Below are positions 32,972 through 39,384 of a stretch of 55,472 nt of DNA, one piece after another. A program made the translations under genes and the position numbers. Within the stretch, counting starts at the first letter, position 1; each line of letters begins with the position of its first letter. The stretch is from an uncultured bacterium. GTDB taxonomy: Bacteria; Desulfobacterota; GWC2-55-46. The notes beneath the pieces were generated by a model. The model searched no databases and had not been told where the DNA came from. It was given only the letters and a program-made list of their open reading frames with translations. The stretch lies in contig CAJPGC010000013.1 in NCBI GenBank assembly GCA_905339405.1, positions 1 through 55,472 of the forward strand. The letters are read 5' to 3'.

Positions 32972-35236
32972 ATGAACATAGGCAGAAAACTCATACTCTC
33001 GTTTCTGCTCGTCACTTTCCTTCCGACTTTGCTTCTCGCTTTTCTTACTACCAACCTCATAAGCTCCAGCAAGAAGGACGACGCGCAGGAGGCGATAAAC
33101 AACAACCTCAAGGCCGCCTGGGTGCAGTATTACGCGCGGGCCTACCAGATGAAGTACGGCATGCTCCAGGCCTCGACCGAGAAGTTCATACAGGACGCGA
33201 TTTTTTCGAGAGACAAAAAGCTCCTGCGCGAACAGCTCAAGTCGTGGAAGGCACACAGGCCGTACGTCGACCTCTGGGCCGTGGTCGACAGAAAAGGCGC
33301 GGTCATCGCTTCCCACAACACGCCCGAGTCGGGCCACCTCCTGGGCCTCGACGGGCTCGTCAACAAGGCGATAACCCGGAAGTCGGCGTTCATCTCGAGC
33401 GAGATAATCCCCGGTTCCGTCCTCGAGGCCGAGCGCATAGACAGGGCGGCAAGGGTAGTGCGCACCTTCGAAGAGAACGGAAGACGCTCCGCCCGGGAAC
33501 TCCTCGACGGCATGATGCTCTGCGTCGTCACGCCGGTCATGGACTCGTCCGGGAACGTGCTCGGGGCGATCGTCACGGGCGACCTCATAAACAACGACCC
33601 GTTCGTGCCGGACGCTTTCGCCGAATCGATACCCGGGGCCCTTGTAACCATATCGATGGGCGACGTGCAGGTCTCCACGAACGTCAGGGGCGAGACCGGG
33701 AAAAGGCTCATAGGCCATGTCATACCCGAAGAGGTGCTTGCCGCGATCAAGAGCCAGATGGGCTACAGGGGCGAGACGGTCCTGGCCCATAAGACTTATT
33801 TGTCCGCCTTCGACCCGGTCATAAACTACGAGGCCAAAATAATCGGCTCCATCTTCGTGGGAGTGCCGAAGGACAGGTTCGTAGAGCTCCAGTACGACAA
33901 CATAAAGGCCGTCATAACCATCTCGATGATAGGCCTGTTTCTCGCAACCGGAGCGGCCTCTTTCGTCACGTACGTCATAACGCGCCCCATCCTGTCGCTC
34001 AAGAAAAAGGCCCAGCTCGTCGCCTCCGGCGACCTCAACGTGAGGATAGGGTCCGCGAAGAAGGGCAATGACGAGATAGCCGACCTGGCGCGCACCTTCG
34101 AGACGATGCTCGAGAGCCTGCGAGATAACGAAGAGCGCATCAAGGTGAGCCAGGAGAAGCTCGCGGCCCAGAACGTCCTCATCGAATCGATAATAAACAG
34201 TCTGCCCTACCGTCTGTACGTGCTCGACAAGGACAAGAACATAGTCCTGTGGAACAGGCGCGCATCCGAAGCGTGCCACATATGCAGGGACTCCGAAGCT
34301 TCATGCGCCCATACGAACGCGCTGGCGCTCGTGCCGGGCGAGGAGTCAAGGCGCGCCCTGGGCGAGGCAATAAGCGGCGCTTTCGCCACCGGCGGGGCGC
34401 AGTCCTTCGAGTACAGGGTCACGGGCTCTGACGGCCGCGAGAAGGTGATATTCGCGAGCGTCTTCCCGGTCCTGCCGGGGGCCTCCGGCCGTGCTGAGCA
34501 CGTCGTGTGGATGTCCGAGGACGTCACCAGGAAAAAGGAGCTCGAGTCGAATATAATATCGAGCGAGAAGCTCGCCGCCGTGGGCCAGCTCGCGGCAGGC
34601 ATAGCCCATGAGGTCAACAACCCCCTGGGCGGCATACTCAACTGCCTTTACAACTTCAGGAGCAAGAAGCTCGCGGACGAGAGAAAGGCCGAGTACATCG
34701 AGTTCATGGAGGACGGCATAAAGAGGGTGCAGAACATCGTAAGGCAGCTCCTCGATTTCTCGCAGCAGCACGCCCCGGAGTTGAAGCTCACCGACCTGAA
34801 CGCCATCATCGAGGGGCTCATACCGCTGTTCGTCCATTCGATAAAGGGCAGGGACATAACCCTTAATACGAAGCTCGGGGCCGGCCTTCCTCCCGTAATG
34901 GCCGACAAGCACCAGATAGAGCAGATAGTCGTGAACCTCATACTGAACGCAGTGCAGGCCGTCTCGGGCGGAGGCATTATCGAGGTGAGGACCCGGGTCG
35001 AGGGCGGCTGGTTTGCAATCGAGGTCGCCGACAACGGCTGCGGCATATCCAAGGAGAACCTGAACCGCGTTTTCGACCCGTTCTTCACGACGAAGGGAGT
35101 TGGCAAGGGCACCGGCTTGGGGCTTTCGGTGAGCCGTGGTATAATCGAAGGCCACAGGGGCAGGATAGAAGTGGACAGCCAGCCGGGAGCGGGCAGCACC
35201 TTCAAGGTCTACCTGCCGGTCCCACAGCAAGCTTAA
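32972..35236 (+). CDS. Membrane sensor histidine kinase (Cache-HAMP-PAS-HisKA-HATPase)
   Basis: This 754-residue kinase has membrane segments near 8-28 and 313-336, which flank a periplasmic double-Cache-type sensor domain (about 30-310). A HAMP linker (337-390), a PAS domain (about 400-525) and the HisKA domain with the phosphoacceptor H546 (GIAHEVNNPLGG) follow, then the ATPase domain (DNGCGIS, DPFFTTK, GTGLGLSVSRGI). The PAS domain holds a compact Cys cluster, C435, C438 and C445, which could bind a metal or Fe-S cluster or respond to redox. It is directly upstream of a sigma-54 response regulator, 16 bases apart, and is its likely partner. Confidence 0.9.
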   Translation: MNIGRKLILSFLLVTFLPTLLLAFLTTNLISSSKKDDAQEAINNNLKAAWVQYYARAYQMKYGMLQASTEKFIQDAIFSRDKKLLREQLKSWKAHRPYVDLWAVVDRKGAVIASHNTPESGHLLGLDGLVNKAITRKSAFISSEIIPGSVLEAERIDRAARVVRTFEENGRRSARELLDGMMLCVVTPVMDSSGNVLGAIVTGDLINNDPFVPDAFAESIPGALVTISMGDVQVSTNVRGETGKRLIGHVIPEEVLAAIKSQMGYRGETVLAHKTYLSAFDPVINYEAKIIGSIFVGVPKDRFVELQYDNIKAVITISMIGLFLATGAASFVTYVITRPILSLKKKAQLVASGDLNVRIGSAKKGNDEIADLARTFETMLESLRDNEERIKVSQEKLAAQNVLIESIINSLPYRLYVLDKDKNIVLWNRRASEACHICRDSEASCAHTNALALVPGEESRRALGEAISGAFATGGAQSFEYRVTGSDGREKVIFASVFPVLPGASGRAEHVVWMSEDVTRKKELESNIISSEKLAAVGQLAAGIAHEVNNPLGGILNCLYNFRSKKLADERKAEYIEFMEDGIKRVQNIVRQLLDFSQQHAPELKLTDLNAIIEGLIPLFVHSIKGRDITLNTKLGAGLPPVMADKHQIEQIVVNLILNAVQAVSGGGIIEVRTRVEGGWFAIEVADNGCGISKENLNRVFDPFFTTKGVGKGTGLGLSVSRGIIEGHRGRIEVDSQPGAGSTFKVYLPVPQQA

Positions 35237-35252
35237 AAGGAGGGGTTTTTTA

Positions 35253-36653
35253 GTGCCGCGCGCGCCGAAGGTCCTGATAATAGACGACGAGCCGCTTATG
35301 AGGATGTCCATAAGCGACGCATTGAAGGAAGAAGGGTACGAGGTCTTCTCCACGGCCTCTGGCAAAGAAGGCGTCCAGCTCGCCAGGGACGGCTCTTTCG
35401 ACATAGTGATAACAGACTTGAGGCTCCCGGACATCGACGGCATCGAGGTACTTAAGTCCTGCAAGAGGGCCTCCTCCGAGACGCTGGTCGTGCTCATAAC
35501 CGCGTACGGGGCCGTGGAGACGGCCGTCGAGGCGATGAAGTACGGCGCTTACGACTACGTCACAAAGCCTTTCCGCATGGAAGAGCTCCTCCTCATGATG
35601 AGGAGGATGGTCAGGCTCCGCGACCTCGAGCAGGAGAACATACTCCTCAAAGAGCAGGTCGAGGGCAGGTACAACTTCAGCGGCATCGTCGGCAAGAGCG
35701 AGAAGATGGAGGAGATTTTCGAGAAGATAAGGATAATAGCCCAGACCGACTCCACAGTCCTCATCCTCGGCGAGAGCGGCACCGGCAAGGAGCTTGTCGC
35801 CAACGCCATACACTACAACAGCCCGAGGAAGTCCGAGCCGTTCATAAAGGTGAGCTGCGCGGCCCTGCCCGAAACCCTCCTTGAGGCCGAGCTCTTCGGC
35901 TACGAGAAGGGCGCGTTCACTGGAGCGGTCAGGCAGAAGAAGGGGAGGTTCGAGCTCGCCGACAGGGGCACCATATTCCTCGACGAGATAGGCGAGCTTT
36001 CCCCTGCGATACAGGTGAAGCTGCTGCGCGTGCTCCAGGAAAAGGAGTTCGACCGGCTCGGAGGGGCAGGCACCATCAGCGTCGACCTCCGCATAATCTG
36101 CGCCACGCAGAGGGACTTGAGGAAAGAGGTCGCCCGGGGCGTATTCAGGGAAGACCTCTTCTACAGGCTAAACGTTGTCCCGCTCGTGCTGCCGCCGCTG
36201 CGCGACAGGAAAGGGGACATCCTGCTGCTCGCCAACCACTTCCTCAAGTACTACGCCGGTCTTTACAAAAAGAGCGTCACGGGTTTTTCCGTCGAGGCGA
36301 TGGAGCTCCTGCTGAAGCACCCGTTTCCGGGGAACGTAAGGGAGCTCGAGCACGCCGTCGAAAGGGCGGTCGTCATGGGCAGGGGCGAGGAGGTTGTCCC
36401 GGCCGACCTCCCGGAGGAGATAGGCGGGGACCCGGGCGAGCGTTTGCAGGCCATCCAGGGCGTATCCAGCCATGAGCGACTTACAAAGGCCATGCGCGAA
36501 TTCGAGAGGCAGTACATCATCAGCGTGCTCGACGAGGCGAAAGGGAACAAGACTCTGGCGGCAAAGCTCCTGGGGGTGTCCAGGAAGACGCTCTGGGAGA
36601 AGTGCAAGATGCTGCAGATTGCGTCCGACTCGAGGGACGCGTCAGGGGAATAA
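35253..36653 (+). CDS. Sigma-54-dependent response regulator
   Basis: This 466-residue NtrC-type activator has a receiver domain (phosphoacceptor D55), a AAA+ domain with Walker A GESGTGKE (173-180), an intact GAFTGA loop (220-225) and FLDEI (242-246), and a Fis-type helix-turn-helix at the end (KTLAAKLLGVSRKTLWEK). The start is GTG, supported by AAGGAGGGG. It is co-transcribed with the kinase. No clear sigma-54 (-24/-12) promoter was found in the window, so its targets are not known. Confidence 0.93.
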   Translation: MPRAPKVLIIDDEPLMRMSISDALKEEGYEVFSTASGKEGVQLARDGSFDIVITDLRLPDIDGIEVLKSCKRASSETLVVLITAYGAVETAVEAMKYGAYDYVTKPFRMEELLLMMRRMVRLRDLEQENILLKEQVEGRYNFSGIVGKSEKMEEIFEKIRIIAQTDSTVLILGESGTGKELVANAIHYNSPRKSEPFIKVSCAALPETLLEAELFGYEKGAFTGAVRQKKGRFELADRGTIFLDEIGELSPAIQVKLLRVLQEKEFDRLGGAGTISVDLRIICATQRDLRKEVARGVFREDLFYRLNVVPLVLPPLRDRKGDILLLANHFLKYYAGLYKKSVTGFSVEAMELLLKHPFPGNVRELEHAVERAVVMGRGEEVVPADLPEEIGGDPGERLQAIQGVSSHERLTKAMREFERQYIISVLDEAKGNKTLAAKLLGVSRKTLWEKCKMLQIASDSRDASGE

Positions 36654-36747: not shown

Positions 36748-37017
36748 TCAACCGACGGTTTTGCCCGTCAGGACGAGTTCGGCGACCTTGATGAGCTTGA
36801 GCCTGGTCTTCCTGCTCGATTTCATCAGGAAGTCATGCGCCTCTTCCTCGGTCATGTTCTTTCTCGCCACTATGGCCCATTTAGCCTTTTCTATTACGTC
36901 TCTTTCCTCGAGCTTTTGCTTGAGGGAGGCTACCTCGGAGTAAAGCTCGAAGTATTGGCGGCAGACGTTCACGCATACGTCGGCCTTGGGCGTACCTGTT
37001 TTTACGCTGCTGCTCAT
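36748..37017 (-). CDS. Stand-alone ANTAR-domain RNA-binding regulator (ANTAR1)
   Basis: This 89-residue protein consists of a short N-terminal part with C15-x3-C19, a helical coiled-coil segment and an ANTAR three-helix domain (about 31-84: VIEKAKWAIVARKNMTEEEA, then the third helix to VAELVL). ANTAR domains bind paired RNA hairpins and block intrinsic terminators. Most are fused to receiver or sensor domains; here there is none. The ATG at 37017 follows GGAGGTATCACA. The gene is divergent from the cytochrome gene, and its promoter shares 15 bases with the cytochrome promoter. A second ANTAR protein lies on the other side of the cytochrome. Confidence 0.85.
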   Translation of the reverse strand: MSSSVKTGTPKADVCVNVCRQYFELYSEVASLKQKLEERDVIEKAKWAIVARKNMTEEEAHDFLMKSSRKTRLKLIKVAELVLTGKTVG

Positions 37018-37129
37018 TGTGATACCTCCAGTGATTAGGGGACGCGGGATCGGAATATGGCTCTGTTGCGTATTAGTATGCCCGGTCCCTGAATCAGTGG
37101 CATTAGTTCTATATTTTTTATGTAACATA

Positions 37130-37158
37130 ATAATGTCAGAGCACATTAAAAATGTCAA
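37130..37158 (-). promoter_or_regulatory. Promoter of the ANTAR1 gene
   Basis: On the minus strand TTGACA (37153-37158) and CATTAT (37130-37135) are 17 bases apart. The first 15 bases, TTGACATTTTTAATG, are identical to those of the cytochrome promoter at 37287. The transcript would have a 5' untranslated region of about 105 bases, in which GGGAC and GTCCC (near 37081-37089 and 37038-37043) can pair. Confidence 0.7.
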
Positions 37159-37286
37159 GGCTGAAAATCTTTTCAACCCTGAGGCGTAATCTCCTCAGTT
37201 AAATGCGAGTAATCTGTAAAACAGTTAATTTTGTTGCGATTTTTATATTTTCAGCTTGAAATATTAAAAATTTCTAATTTTCCCTA

Positions 37287-37315
37287 TTGACATTTTTAAT
37301 GGTTTGGAATATCAT
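37287..37315 (+). promoter_or_regulatory. Promoter of the cytochrome leader transcript
   Basis: TTGACA (37287-37292) and TATCAT (37310-37315) are separated by exactly 17 bases in AT-rich DNA. Transcription would begin near 37322 and produce a leader of about 540 bases before the cytochrome start codon. Confidence 0.75.
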
Positions 37316-37549
37316 GGCAATCATCGAGAGTAGTAATAACCCGCAACAGGGGCTCAGGAAGGGACCTTCGCGGATAGCAAAAGATGCTTAACCCCAGGGC
37401 TCACGCCTTGGTTTAAGAGTAAGGCCGTTTGTGGGAACGGCTCAGGCCATGAAGGCCTCAGCCATCCAGGCCAAAAGTCCTGAAACTCAGGACAACCAGG
37501 AACACGAACATAATCCTTCACTGGAAAGCTCATGATGGGCTTCCAGTGC

Positions 37550-37579
37550 CGGAACAAGTCCATGGATGCCTTGGTTCCG
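37550..37579 (+). promoter_or_regulatory. Candidate antiterminator hairpin
   Basis: CGGAAC (37550-37555) followed by AAG pairs with CTT and GTTCCG (37574-37579), with one bulged G. The 3' arm is part of the 5' arm of the terminator at 37566, so the two structures exclude each other. Confidence 0.6.
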
Positions 37580-37610
37580 TCGAAAGACGGTATCAAGGCA
37601 TTTTTTTTTT
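37566..37610 (+). terminator. Intrinsic terminator inside the cytochrome leader
   Basis: ATGCCTTG (37566-37573) pairs with CAAGGCAT (37594-37601) and CCGTC with GACGG around a GAAA loop, with a small internal loop between. Ten T follow. It lies about 250 bases before the cytochrome start codon, so most transcripts would stop here unless it is prevented from folding. Confidence 0.92.
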
Positions 37611-37861
37611 GGTCTTGTGGCCTCTCTAAAAACCGGCTCAAAAAGCTCATGGCGGGCTTGGAAGGGTCGGAAAAGCTGAAAGCCGCGCAAGCAGCTGAAG
37701 GCAAAAGTCCACGGCATCCTCAAGATGCCCTGGAGCCTCAGGCCGAAAGGCAGGGGGCGCCGGAAGCGGACCGACGGAAGGTCCGGAAACCGGTAAGGCC
37801 AAGTCGCCTGGGTAGATACTTACAAAAAAAAGAATTTTAACTTGTGGAAAGGAGTATCACA

Positions 37862-38764
37862 ATGAAAAGGTTTCTCACCCTCGCACTCGCAGTTGCTTCA
37901 GTAGGCTTTATCGCGGTAGGCACTGCCTCCGCTGTTGACACTTACGACGACGGCGACGCCGCAAACGGCATCGGTAACTCCAGGCATAACCTCGGATCCC
38001 TCGGTGAGCACATCGTCACCACCGGCGGCACCGGCACCTCCGAGATATGCGTATTCTGTCACACGCCTCACCACACCAACACCACGAACAACCTGAAGCC
38101 GTTGTGGAACAGGGGCACCTCTGCTCCCACTTCCTTCACCGCCTATGGCACCACTCTTGGCGGCAGCACGATAGTCTCTGGTGACGTAGGATCCACCTCG
38201 CTGGCCTGCTTGAGCTGCCACGATGGTGTGACCACCTTCGACAACCTCCTCAACACCCCCGGTAAGTCCGGCGTTACCGCCACCGGCTCCGACAGGAACT
38301 GGTCCTTCTATGATGCCGCGGTCGAGACCGTCGTCTCCGACTTCATGACCTCCAGCAGGTTGAACATCGGCCTGAACCTCTCCAACGATCACCCGGTGTC
38401 CGTAACCTACACCGAGGGCGTCGCTGGCCTCAGGGACAAGACCACGACCATCTTTGACATCGACGTGGCCGCTGAACTGGCCGACTCCGCCGCGACCTTT
38501 GATGGCGGCAACCTGACCAAGAACCTCTGGGCCGTGAAGGGCTATGTTGATGCCGGCGCGACCATCCAGGACCTCCTCAGGGACGACAAGGTAGAGTGCT
38601 CGAGCTGCCACGATCCCCACTTCAACAACAAGTCCTGGAACGAGATCGACCCGACCTACGATGCTGACACCGAGCTGCAGGAGCCCGAGAACAACGGTCT
38701 GTTCCTCAGAAGGGTCGGCGGAAACTCCGGTTCCGGTCTCTGCAGAACCTGCCACAACAAGTAA
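37862..38764 (+). CDS. Exported tetrahaem c-type cytochrome
   Basis: The 300-residue product has a signal peptide cleaved after TASA (residue 24) and four CxxCH haem sites: CVFCH (63-67), CLSCH (116-120), CSSCH (246-250) and CRTCH (294-298). Further His residues (H42, H50, H70/71, H177, H253) can supply the second axial ligands. Layout with an N-terminal SRHNLG and EICVFCHTPHH is typical of deltaproteobacterial cytochromes used in extracellular or periplasmic electron transfer, including filament-forming tetrahaem types, but assignment to those is only a guess. ATG 37862 follows GGAAAGGAGTATCACA. Expression is controlled by the leader upstream, and a hairpin terminator follows. Confidence 0.88.
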   Translation: MKRFLTLALAVASVGFIAVGTASAVDTYDDGDAANGIGNSRHNLGSLGEHIVTTGGTGTSEICVFCHTPHHTNTTNNLKPLWNRGTSAPTSFTAYGTTLGGSTIVSGDVGSTSLACLSCHDGVTTFDNLLNTPGKSGVTATGSDRNWSFYDAAVETVVSDFMTSSRLNIGLNLSNDHPVSVTYTEGVAGLRDKTTTIFDIDVAAELADSAATFDGGNLTKNLWAVKGYVDAGATIQDLLRDDKVECSSCHDPHFNNKSWNEIDPTYDADTELQEPENNGLFLRRVGGNSGSGLCRTCHNK

Positions 38765-38803
38765 TGCCGCTTCTGGCATAACTTGGAACATATGTAAAAA
38801 AGA

Positions 38804-38828
38804 GCGGGCCGGAGTCTCTCCGGCCCGC
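38804..38828 (+). terminator. Terminator-like hairpin after the cytochrome gene
   Basis: GCGGGCCGGA and TCCGGCCCGC form a 10-bp GC-rich stem with a five-base loop; the following T-tract is short. Confidence 0.7.
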
Positions 38829-38839
38829 ATCTTTATAAA

Positions 38840-38869
38840 CTTCTTAAGAAGGCATGAACCTGCTATAAT
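38840..38869 (+). promoter_or_regulatory. Candidate promoter and operator of the ANTAR2 gene
   Basis: A perfect TATAAT is at 38864-38869. The -35 region is poor, but it is occupied by the 12-base palindrome CTTCTTAAGAAG (38840-38851), a possible binding site for an activator. Confidence 0.5.
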
Positions 38870-38912
38870 GGTTTTGAACAAGCCGGGTTTGTGAAAGCAA
38901 GGTGGGATTTTT

Positions 38913-39224
38913 ATGGCAAAGGTCCCTGACAAAAAGGAAGACGTCCTGATGAACGAGGCTGCCGGTCCGAAAGCCTGCGATTCGCTCTGTAAGCCGCTCA
39001 TCGAGCTTTCAGAAGAACTCGACCGGCTCAAGGTTGAACTGAAGGAACGTCAGCTCATCGAGAAGGCAAAGGGCGTTCTGATAAAGTCGAAGGGCATCAG
39101 CGAGCAGGAAGCCTCGAAGATAATGCACTCTTTCATGGAGCAGCAGAACAAGAGCCTTGCCGAGGTTGCAAATATAGTCCTCCTGGGCGAAAAGATGCTG
39201 GGCCAGAATGGCTTGCTGAAGTAG
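38913..39224 (+). CDS. Stand-alone ANTAR-domain RNA-binding regulator (ANTAR2)
   Basis: This 103-residue protein is a paralogue of ANTAR1: C22-x3-C26, a Glu/Leu-rich coiled coil, and an ANTAR domain (LIEKAKGVLIKSKGISEQEA to VANIVLLGEKML). The distance from the first Cys to IEKAK is the same in both proteins (27 residues). It lacks a receiver or sensor domain, so the Cys pair is the only visible candidate for signal input. AAGGTGGG precedes the ATG. The gene lies on the same strand as the cytochrome gene, after its terminator, and has its own terminator. Confidence 0.85.
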   Translation: MAKVPDKKEDVLMNEAAGPKACDSLCKPLIELSEELDRLKVELKERQLIEKAKGVLIKSKGISEQEASKIMHSFMEQQNKSLAEVANIVLLGEKMLGQNGLLK

Positions 39225-39238
39225 TTTGGTACCGAAGT

Positions 39239-39275
39239 AACAGGGCTGTTTGTCTCCCTAGCCCTGTTGTCATTT
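39239..39275 (+). terminator. Intrinsic terminator after ANTAR2
   Basis: AACAGGGCT and AGCCCTGTT pair with a 12-base loop, then a T-rich stretch follows. Confidence 0.75.
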
Positions 39276-39384
39276 TTATTGCCTTTCCCGGGCGGTCCCC
39301 CCTTTAGAACAATTCCGAAATTCCGTTTGGTTTCTCCTGCGTCTTAACCTTGCCTGCGTCTTTTGAGGTGTAGTCTTTTTCTTT

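Follow-up and report, generated by a model that had tools for sequence, protein, structure and literature searches.

A variant ANTAR-type dual-hairpin element and candidate antitermination switch in the leader of an OmcE-like cytochrome gene

Does the long leader of an electron-transfer cytochrome gene lying between two small ANTAR genes form an RNA switch, and would ANTAR proteins work it? The question is raised by a 55,472-nt stretch of DNA (the window; CAJPGC010000013.1, contig G000:C13 of the 2.65 Mb, 95% complete genome GCA_905339405.1) from an uncultured bacterium of the Desulfobacterota (GWC2-55-46), for which a sequence-only reading had proposed ANTAR-controlled antitermination of a tetrahaem cytochrome. 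Taken as a whole, the evidence makes it probable in our view that this leader is a variant ANTAR-family antitermination switch for the OmcE-like cytochrome. For the RNA element at its heart, the reading that fits best is a new form of ANTAR antitermination, an earlier listing in the ANTAR covariance survey (PMC3369931) being possible.

The leader runs for 543 nt from a sigma-70-like promoter to the cytochrome start codon and folds far better than its shuffles (z-score -8.9). Its intrinsic terminator reaches -26.4 kcal/mol over a 59-nt stretch (z-score -5.8), and the claim of a strong terminator in a long leader is thus borne out. Two hairpins, P1 and P2, separated in the window by 6 nt, precede the terminator, and the 3' arm of P2 is at the same time the 5' arm of the terminator (Table 1). 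The same order is repeated across homologous leaders, which show P1 with an AYGRN loop closed by a C-G pair, a short linker, P2 of the form GGC-NAYGRAU-GCC, and the terminator. The alternative antiterminator hairpin seen by the sequence-only reading is real but does not stand alone, being one of a hairpin pair conserved in 22 aligned sequences. Likewise, its remark that the leader lacks a clear pair of hexaloops with A1 and G4 is literally right, as no canonical dual A1/G4 hexaloop was found in the window leader, but the leader does carry a pair of hairpins, whose loops follow AYGRN in P1 and NAYGRAU in P2.

The alignment comprises the window and 21 relatives, two sequences having been added by hand; a regular expression gave 22 distinct strings. 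Pairing is formed in 87.5% of cells for P1 plus P2 and in 90.5% for P1 plus the terminator, none of 500 shuffles reached the observed pairing or covariation scores for either combination, and sliding the partners by 1-3 columns lowers pairing to 30-53%. Column 60 pairs with column 46 in P2 or with column 102 in the terminator; columns 46/60/102 read A/U/A in 8 sequences, C/G/C in 5, U/A/U in 2 and other combinations in 7, and this joint change supports mutually exclusive P2 and terminator pairings. The closing C and G of P1, a G as third loop base and the GCC in P2 are invariant, a loop conservation that is partly by construction because the sequences were picked partly by loop pattern; the covariation and the later model matches are less affected by this selection. 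These observations bear on the possibility that the terminator is a fixed attenuator, which would fix the basal proportions of short and long transcripts while the hairpins protect the RNA, with no regulation at all. The far greater stability of the terminator compared with P2 would suit such an arrangement, but it would not explain why the three-way covariation and the invariant loop bases persist, and we regard it as very improbable. As a separate observation, many aligned copies carry CCGAUG or CCGACG atop the terminator hairpin (columns 70-76), resembling the P2 loop, and a third binding site at the top of that hairpin is conceivable.

How widely is the element kept, and upstream of what? 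A covariance model, which matches the window copy at 37514-37608 with 65.8 bits, detects it in 32 of 59 related genomes, at 1-7 copies each, and in only 6 genomes of a phylum-wide sample of 297. With E no higher than 2.5e-5, 82 matches count as strong; an OmcE-like cytochrome follows 60 of them and a PocR-GAF-GGDEF diguanylate cyclase a further 16, the other 6 having other or unresolved targets, some near contig ends or in short loci. The window genome itself holds four copies, namely those in the window, at a cytochrome on C14, on C49 and at the diguanylate cyclase on C36. This spread over relatives, together with the four copies in one genome, makes it a lineage-specific regulon element. Whole-leader DNA similarity gives a clear match in genome G002 only, the element being kept by structure and not by overall sequence. 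Canonical A1/G4 hexaloops occur in about 6 of 19 P2 loops of cyclase-type or related copies (full stem counted, by eye), and these canonical cyclase-type loops bridge the canonical and variant element types. The cyclase gene (L199 2346-3947 and orthologues) lies 3' of secD/secF-like genes and carries an element copy in many genomes.

Could something other than an ANTAR protein read the element? It might be a small-molecule riboswitch or be bound by an unrelated RNA-binding protein, with the link to ANTAR genes secondary. Riboswitches of the c-di-GMP classes are known upstream of cytochrome genes, which we counted in favour of this possibility, as we did the diguanylate cyclase among the targets and genome G140 (another class, 93% complete), in which the element was found (G140:C9:3090-3205, 34.5 bits, upstream of a TonB-dependent receptor) but an ANTAR was not. 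However, the structure suggests recognition by a protein, as it consists of two distinct hairpins whose loops are almost alike, with no other conserved junction or pseudoknot. In addition, no Rfam family reaches the gathering threshold in the window and no riboswitch is among the weak chance matches in 37000-39300, so that a riboswitch (c-di-GMP or other) or leader family of Rfam was rejected for want of a covariance-model match. Since the layout moreover equals that of a canonical ANTAR element in the same genome, we hold a riboswitch or an unrelated protein to be unlikely.

That canonical element, a dual A1/G4 hexaloop with terminator for which shuffles gave no such match, lies in the leader of a porin-amtB gene pair, near the gene of a type II receiver-ANTAR protein, and belongs to the type of the NasR/nasF and AmiR/ami systems. 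A dual hairpin whose second member overlaps the terminator is, as outlined in PMC3369931, the established layout of EutV, NasR and AmiR targets. Among the closest known systems are the eut leaders of Enterococcus faecalis, where accounts of EutV likewise describe two nearby short hairpins, the second overlapping the terminator 5' arm upstream of the gene (PMC3369931, PMC8934654). The present element differs from them in that window-type loops are AYGRN (5 bases) and NAYGRAU (7 bases) instead of six bases with A1 and G4, that the nearby small ANTARs lack a receiver domain, Y164 and M172, and that the target is an electron-transfer cytochrome. Because the A1/G4 six-base loop rule was tested and does not hold here, we do not file the element as a canonical ANTAR target. 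By analogy with NasR/nasF and AmiR/ami, the leader terminator would be overridden by an ANTAR protein; NasR, however, has a nitrate-sensing domain and AmiR an AmiC partner, whereas the small ANTARs consist of an ANTAR domain and a coiled coil only, with a C/H-x3-C motif. PdtaR (Rv1626) and the actinobacterial ANTAR RNAs offer a further parallel in ANTAR-RNA regulons with relaxed loop conservation, although PdtaR is a receiver-ANTAR and many of its targets overlap the ribosome binding site and not a terminator (PMC8164766).

The two proteins encoded on either side of the cytochrome gene, ANTAR1 and ANTAR2, match Pfam ANTAR (PF03861) with 60.6 and 47.9 bits against a cut-off of 27.3; neither has another Pfam domain or a receiver domain, in agreement with the earlier description of two flanking stand-alone ANTAR proteins. 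The AlphaFold model of ANTAR1 (pLDDT 87) has EutV (6ww6/6wsh) as its best match among solved structures and is predicted to share with it the ANTAR fold, a coiled coil followed by three helices (TMq 0.75 against 6wsh, at Foldseek E-values of only about 1e-3). A model of the small ANTARs, built from the same 13 stand-alone proteins and run on 48 genomes of the order, scores these at 109.8-125.2 bits and all other proteins, receiver-ANTARs included, at no more than 70.5. The 13 are confined to seven genomes, the window genome and six others, and every one of them adjoins an OmcE-like cytochrome; outside the group stand a degenerate copy in G027 and a short ANTAR open reading frame at G015:C500 with 44.5 bits. 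The 13 proteins fall into a KAKW and a KAKG class, and five of the seven genomes have at least one protein of each class, either within the locus or on contig ends that match. A quick tree, whose supports were not examined, splits both from the receiver-ANTARs and places G023 apart from the other KAKW proteins.

A cysteine just before the coiled coil is invariant in all 13 small ANTARs, within a motif that reads C-x3-C in nine, H-x3-C in three and C-x2-C in G023; the ANTAR1 model would place this segment at the start of the long helix. The replacement of Cys by His in some of the proteins points to a metal site more than to a disulfide, and no paper on the C/H-x3-C motif of small ANTARs was found in the literature searched. 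The sequence-only reading had called the regulators free of receiver and sensor domains. They have no receiver domain, but with the invariant Cys kept and C/H-x3-C in 12 of 13 they are not plainly sensor-less, and through this motif they may sense metal or redox state. A more specific proposal, that an ANTAR1-ANTAR2 heterodimer carrying a metal or Fe-S centre on four Cys/His ligands at the base of the coiled coil gates antitermination of the nanowire-type cytochrome by redox or metal state, acting via a pentaloop and a heptaloop hairpin, is tentative and, to our minds, rather doubtful; if true, it would amount to an RNA switch by which redox state gates extracellular electron transfer.

Whether the small ANTARs are the direct binders is a question on which their residues bear. 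EutV uses Y164 to stack on a flipped-out G4 and cannot do without M172; M172A abolishes RNA binding (PMC8934654). We compared the RNA-contact residues R142, K149, E160, Y164, R168, M172 and R175. In the small ANTARs Y164 and M172 are replaced in all 13 and R168 and R175 lost in many, while K149 and E160 are kept throughout and R142 is R or K, so that ANTAR1 and ANTAR2 do not carry the full EutV set. Of the four ANTAR domains of the window genome two are in receiver-ANTAR proteins; the type II protein keeps R168, M172 and R175, and type I receiver-ANTARs have the fixed differing residues F164, Q168, Q172 and N175. In one genome, then, proteins and element go together, both canonical at one place and both altered at the other. 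Altered small ANTARs with altered loops would fit a change of specificity, the alternative being that the small ANTARs lost RNA binding.

The absence of these key contact residues also fits a different division of labour, in which a receiver-ANTAR encoded elsewhere controls the element and the small ANTARs are modulators, such as dominant-negative partners or titrators, and not direct binders. A type I receiver-ANTAR is indeed present in most element genomes, including those without stand-alone ANTARs (a rough search, with a query 85% identical to the true protein). It also occurs in genomes without the element, however, where it must have other roles too, and stand-alone ANTARs occur only beside these leaders, where leaders with extra hairpins are found. 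Most element copies that lack an ANTAR neighbour have leaders of about 160-200 nt; at small-ANTAR loci the length is about 480-550 nt, and several of these longer leaders bear such hairpins. In the window leader, hairpins of the type C[RYGRN]G number three, against a shuffled mean of 0.03. Control by a receiver-ANTAR with the small proteins as mere modulators is possible but on the unlikely side, and since it falls within the general ANTAR reading, the confidence placed in it overlaps with that placed in the switch as a whole. The type I protein (e.g. L117 4984-5625) is widespread in the class and has no known target.

Several observations weigh against an ANTAR-controlled switch. Taken alone, the segment 37514-37576 has a minimum-energy fold other than P2. 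M172 is absent from all stand-alone ANTARs, and as its replacement abolishes EutV binding, these proteins might not bind RNA. Type I receiver-ANTARs, present both in genomes that have the element and in genomes that lack it, have almost identical contact residues throughout the sequences compared. The stand-alone ANTARs of the G023 locus and of one G027 locus stand beside weak, diverged elements of 18-20 bits. Most element copies have no ANTAR gene nearby, and in G140, the one distant genome to have the element, no ANTAR was found. The sequence-only reading had named leaders kept in homologous loci without any ANTAR gene as evidence against itself, and this has come about by half: copies without a neighbour are common, yet all 59 related genomes encode at least one ANTAR domain, compared with 123 of the 297 across the phylum. 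Presence and absence can therefore not test dependence on ANTAR among the relatives. What stands of the sequence-only proposal is the antitermination architecture in the cytochrome leader and the 13-of-13 link between stand-alone ANTARs and cytochromes.

Beyond the element itself we infer ANTAR binding, the direction of control, the acting ANTAR and the signal sensed, and propose that an antitermination switch would operate as follows. By default the terminator would form and the OmcE-like cytochrome would not be made. A dimeric ANTAR protein would bind the loops of P1 and P2, and the weak P2, stabilised by it, would withdraw the terminator 5' arm GCCUUG, so that polymerase reads on into the cytochrome gene. 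In our opinion ANTAR1 and ANTAR2 work on the leader as dimers, each with itself or with the other. The same element would control OmcE-like cytochromes and the diguanylate cyclase within one uncultured lineage related to deltaproteobacteria, across which a receiver-ANTAR protein probably reads it. In the window genome and six others, the switch would come with small ANTARs of its own, usually one per class, and mostly with a longer leader. As most elements lack a neighbouring ANTAR, general regulation may fall to the receiver-ANTAR, with ANTAR1 and ANTAR2 as an accessory added locally and perhaps tuned by redox state or metal.

The presumed target is a tetrahaem cytochrome, as claimed earlier: it has four CxxCH motifs and matches the chain of 7TFS, the OmcE nanowire cytochrome of Geobacter sulfurreducens (PMC12954529), over residues 33-188 (E 6.8e-17). 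Across 20 cytochrome homologues the four haem motifs and His 42, 70, 177 and 253 vary little or not at all, and these extra conserved histidines would fit bis-His haems. Its relatives are mostly deltaproteobacterial records, many from groundwater genomes. OmcE and the window cytochrome are both tetrahaem and homologous over residues 33-188, but the latter, a putative filament former, is the longer (300 aa, against 232 in the 7TFS chain); antitermination control was not found for OmcE in the papers searched. The AlphaFold model of the cytochrome was unusable (mean pLDDT 37) and was not used. A paralogue on C14 (L114 5608-6507) with 94% protein identity, a short leader and no ANTAR lies within a cytochrome cluster, which suggests a recent duplication or gene conversion.

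Three further candidates at the locus were rejected. A Cache-HAMP-PAS histidine kinase and an NtrC-type sigma-54 regulator are encoded just upstream of ANTAR1 (32972-36653); as the sensor they were discarded, since they are not kept at the homologous loci compared. In G002 an NlpC/P60 gene directly adjoins ANTAR1, and the kinase and NtrC-type regulator are absent between orthologous neighbours. A 102-aa open reading frame (37532-37840, + strand) has no family and overlaps the terminator, and the single hexaloop UUCC[AGUGCC]GGAA is not conserved in G002.

Table 1. Features of the cytochrome locus in the window, and the canonical element elsewhere in the genome.
Feature	Position	Strand	Evidence or context
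ANTAR1, 89 aa, KAKW class, CVNVC motif	36748..37017	-	Pfam ANTAR; AlphaFold model; class kept beside cytochromes
Sigma-70-like promoter, TTGACA-17-TATCAT, 11/12 consensus bases	37287..37315	+	
Extra hairpin, loop C[AUGAA]G, upstream of core element	37439..37463	+	
P1 hairpin, loop AUGAU (5 nt), C-G closing pair	37519..37548	+	Alignment, covariation
P2 (antiterminator) hairpin CAAGUCCAUGGAUGCCUUG, loop CAUGGAU (7 nt)	37555..37573	+	Alignment, three-way covariation
Intrinsic terminator, run of ten U	37564..37610	+	
P1-like hairpin, loop C[AUGGC]G, 3' of terminator	37639..37663	+	Weak covariance-model match 37631-37717, 17.3 bits
OmcE-like tetrahaem cytochrome c, 300 aa, four CxxCH	37862..38764	+	Match to 7tfs chain; homologue alignment
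Inverted repeat, terminator-like on both strands, 3' of cytochrome gene	38804..38828	.	
ANTAR2, 103 aa, KAKG class, CDSLC motif	38913..39224	+	Pfam ANTAR
Canonical dual element CGGUUAC[AUUGGC]GUAACCG - 21 nt - AAGGC[AACGGC]GCCUU + terminator	G000:C60, L168 4981-5060		Before porin-amtB

How bacteria choose among extracellular cytochromes is poorly understood, and the window offers a concrete candidate RNA switch for an OmcE-like cytochrome and, within one regulon, a diguanylate cyclase, suggesting that an uncultured lineage sets extracellular electron transfer on or off by aborting or completing an mRNA. The covariance model provides a search tool for an RNA element without an Rfam match. The switch would extend ANTAR control to electron transfer, would show ANTAR recognition of loops beyond the A1/G4 hexaloop, with matching changes in the protein, and would supply regulators of the ANTAR family that are very small and may sense metal or redox state themselves.

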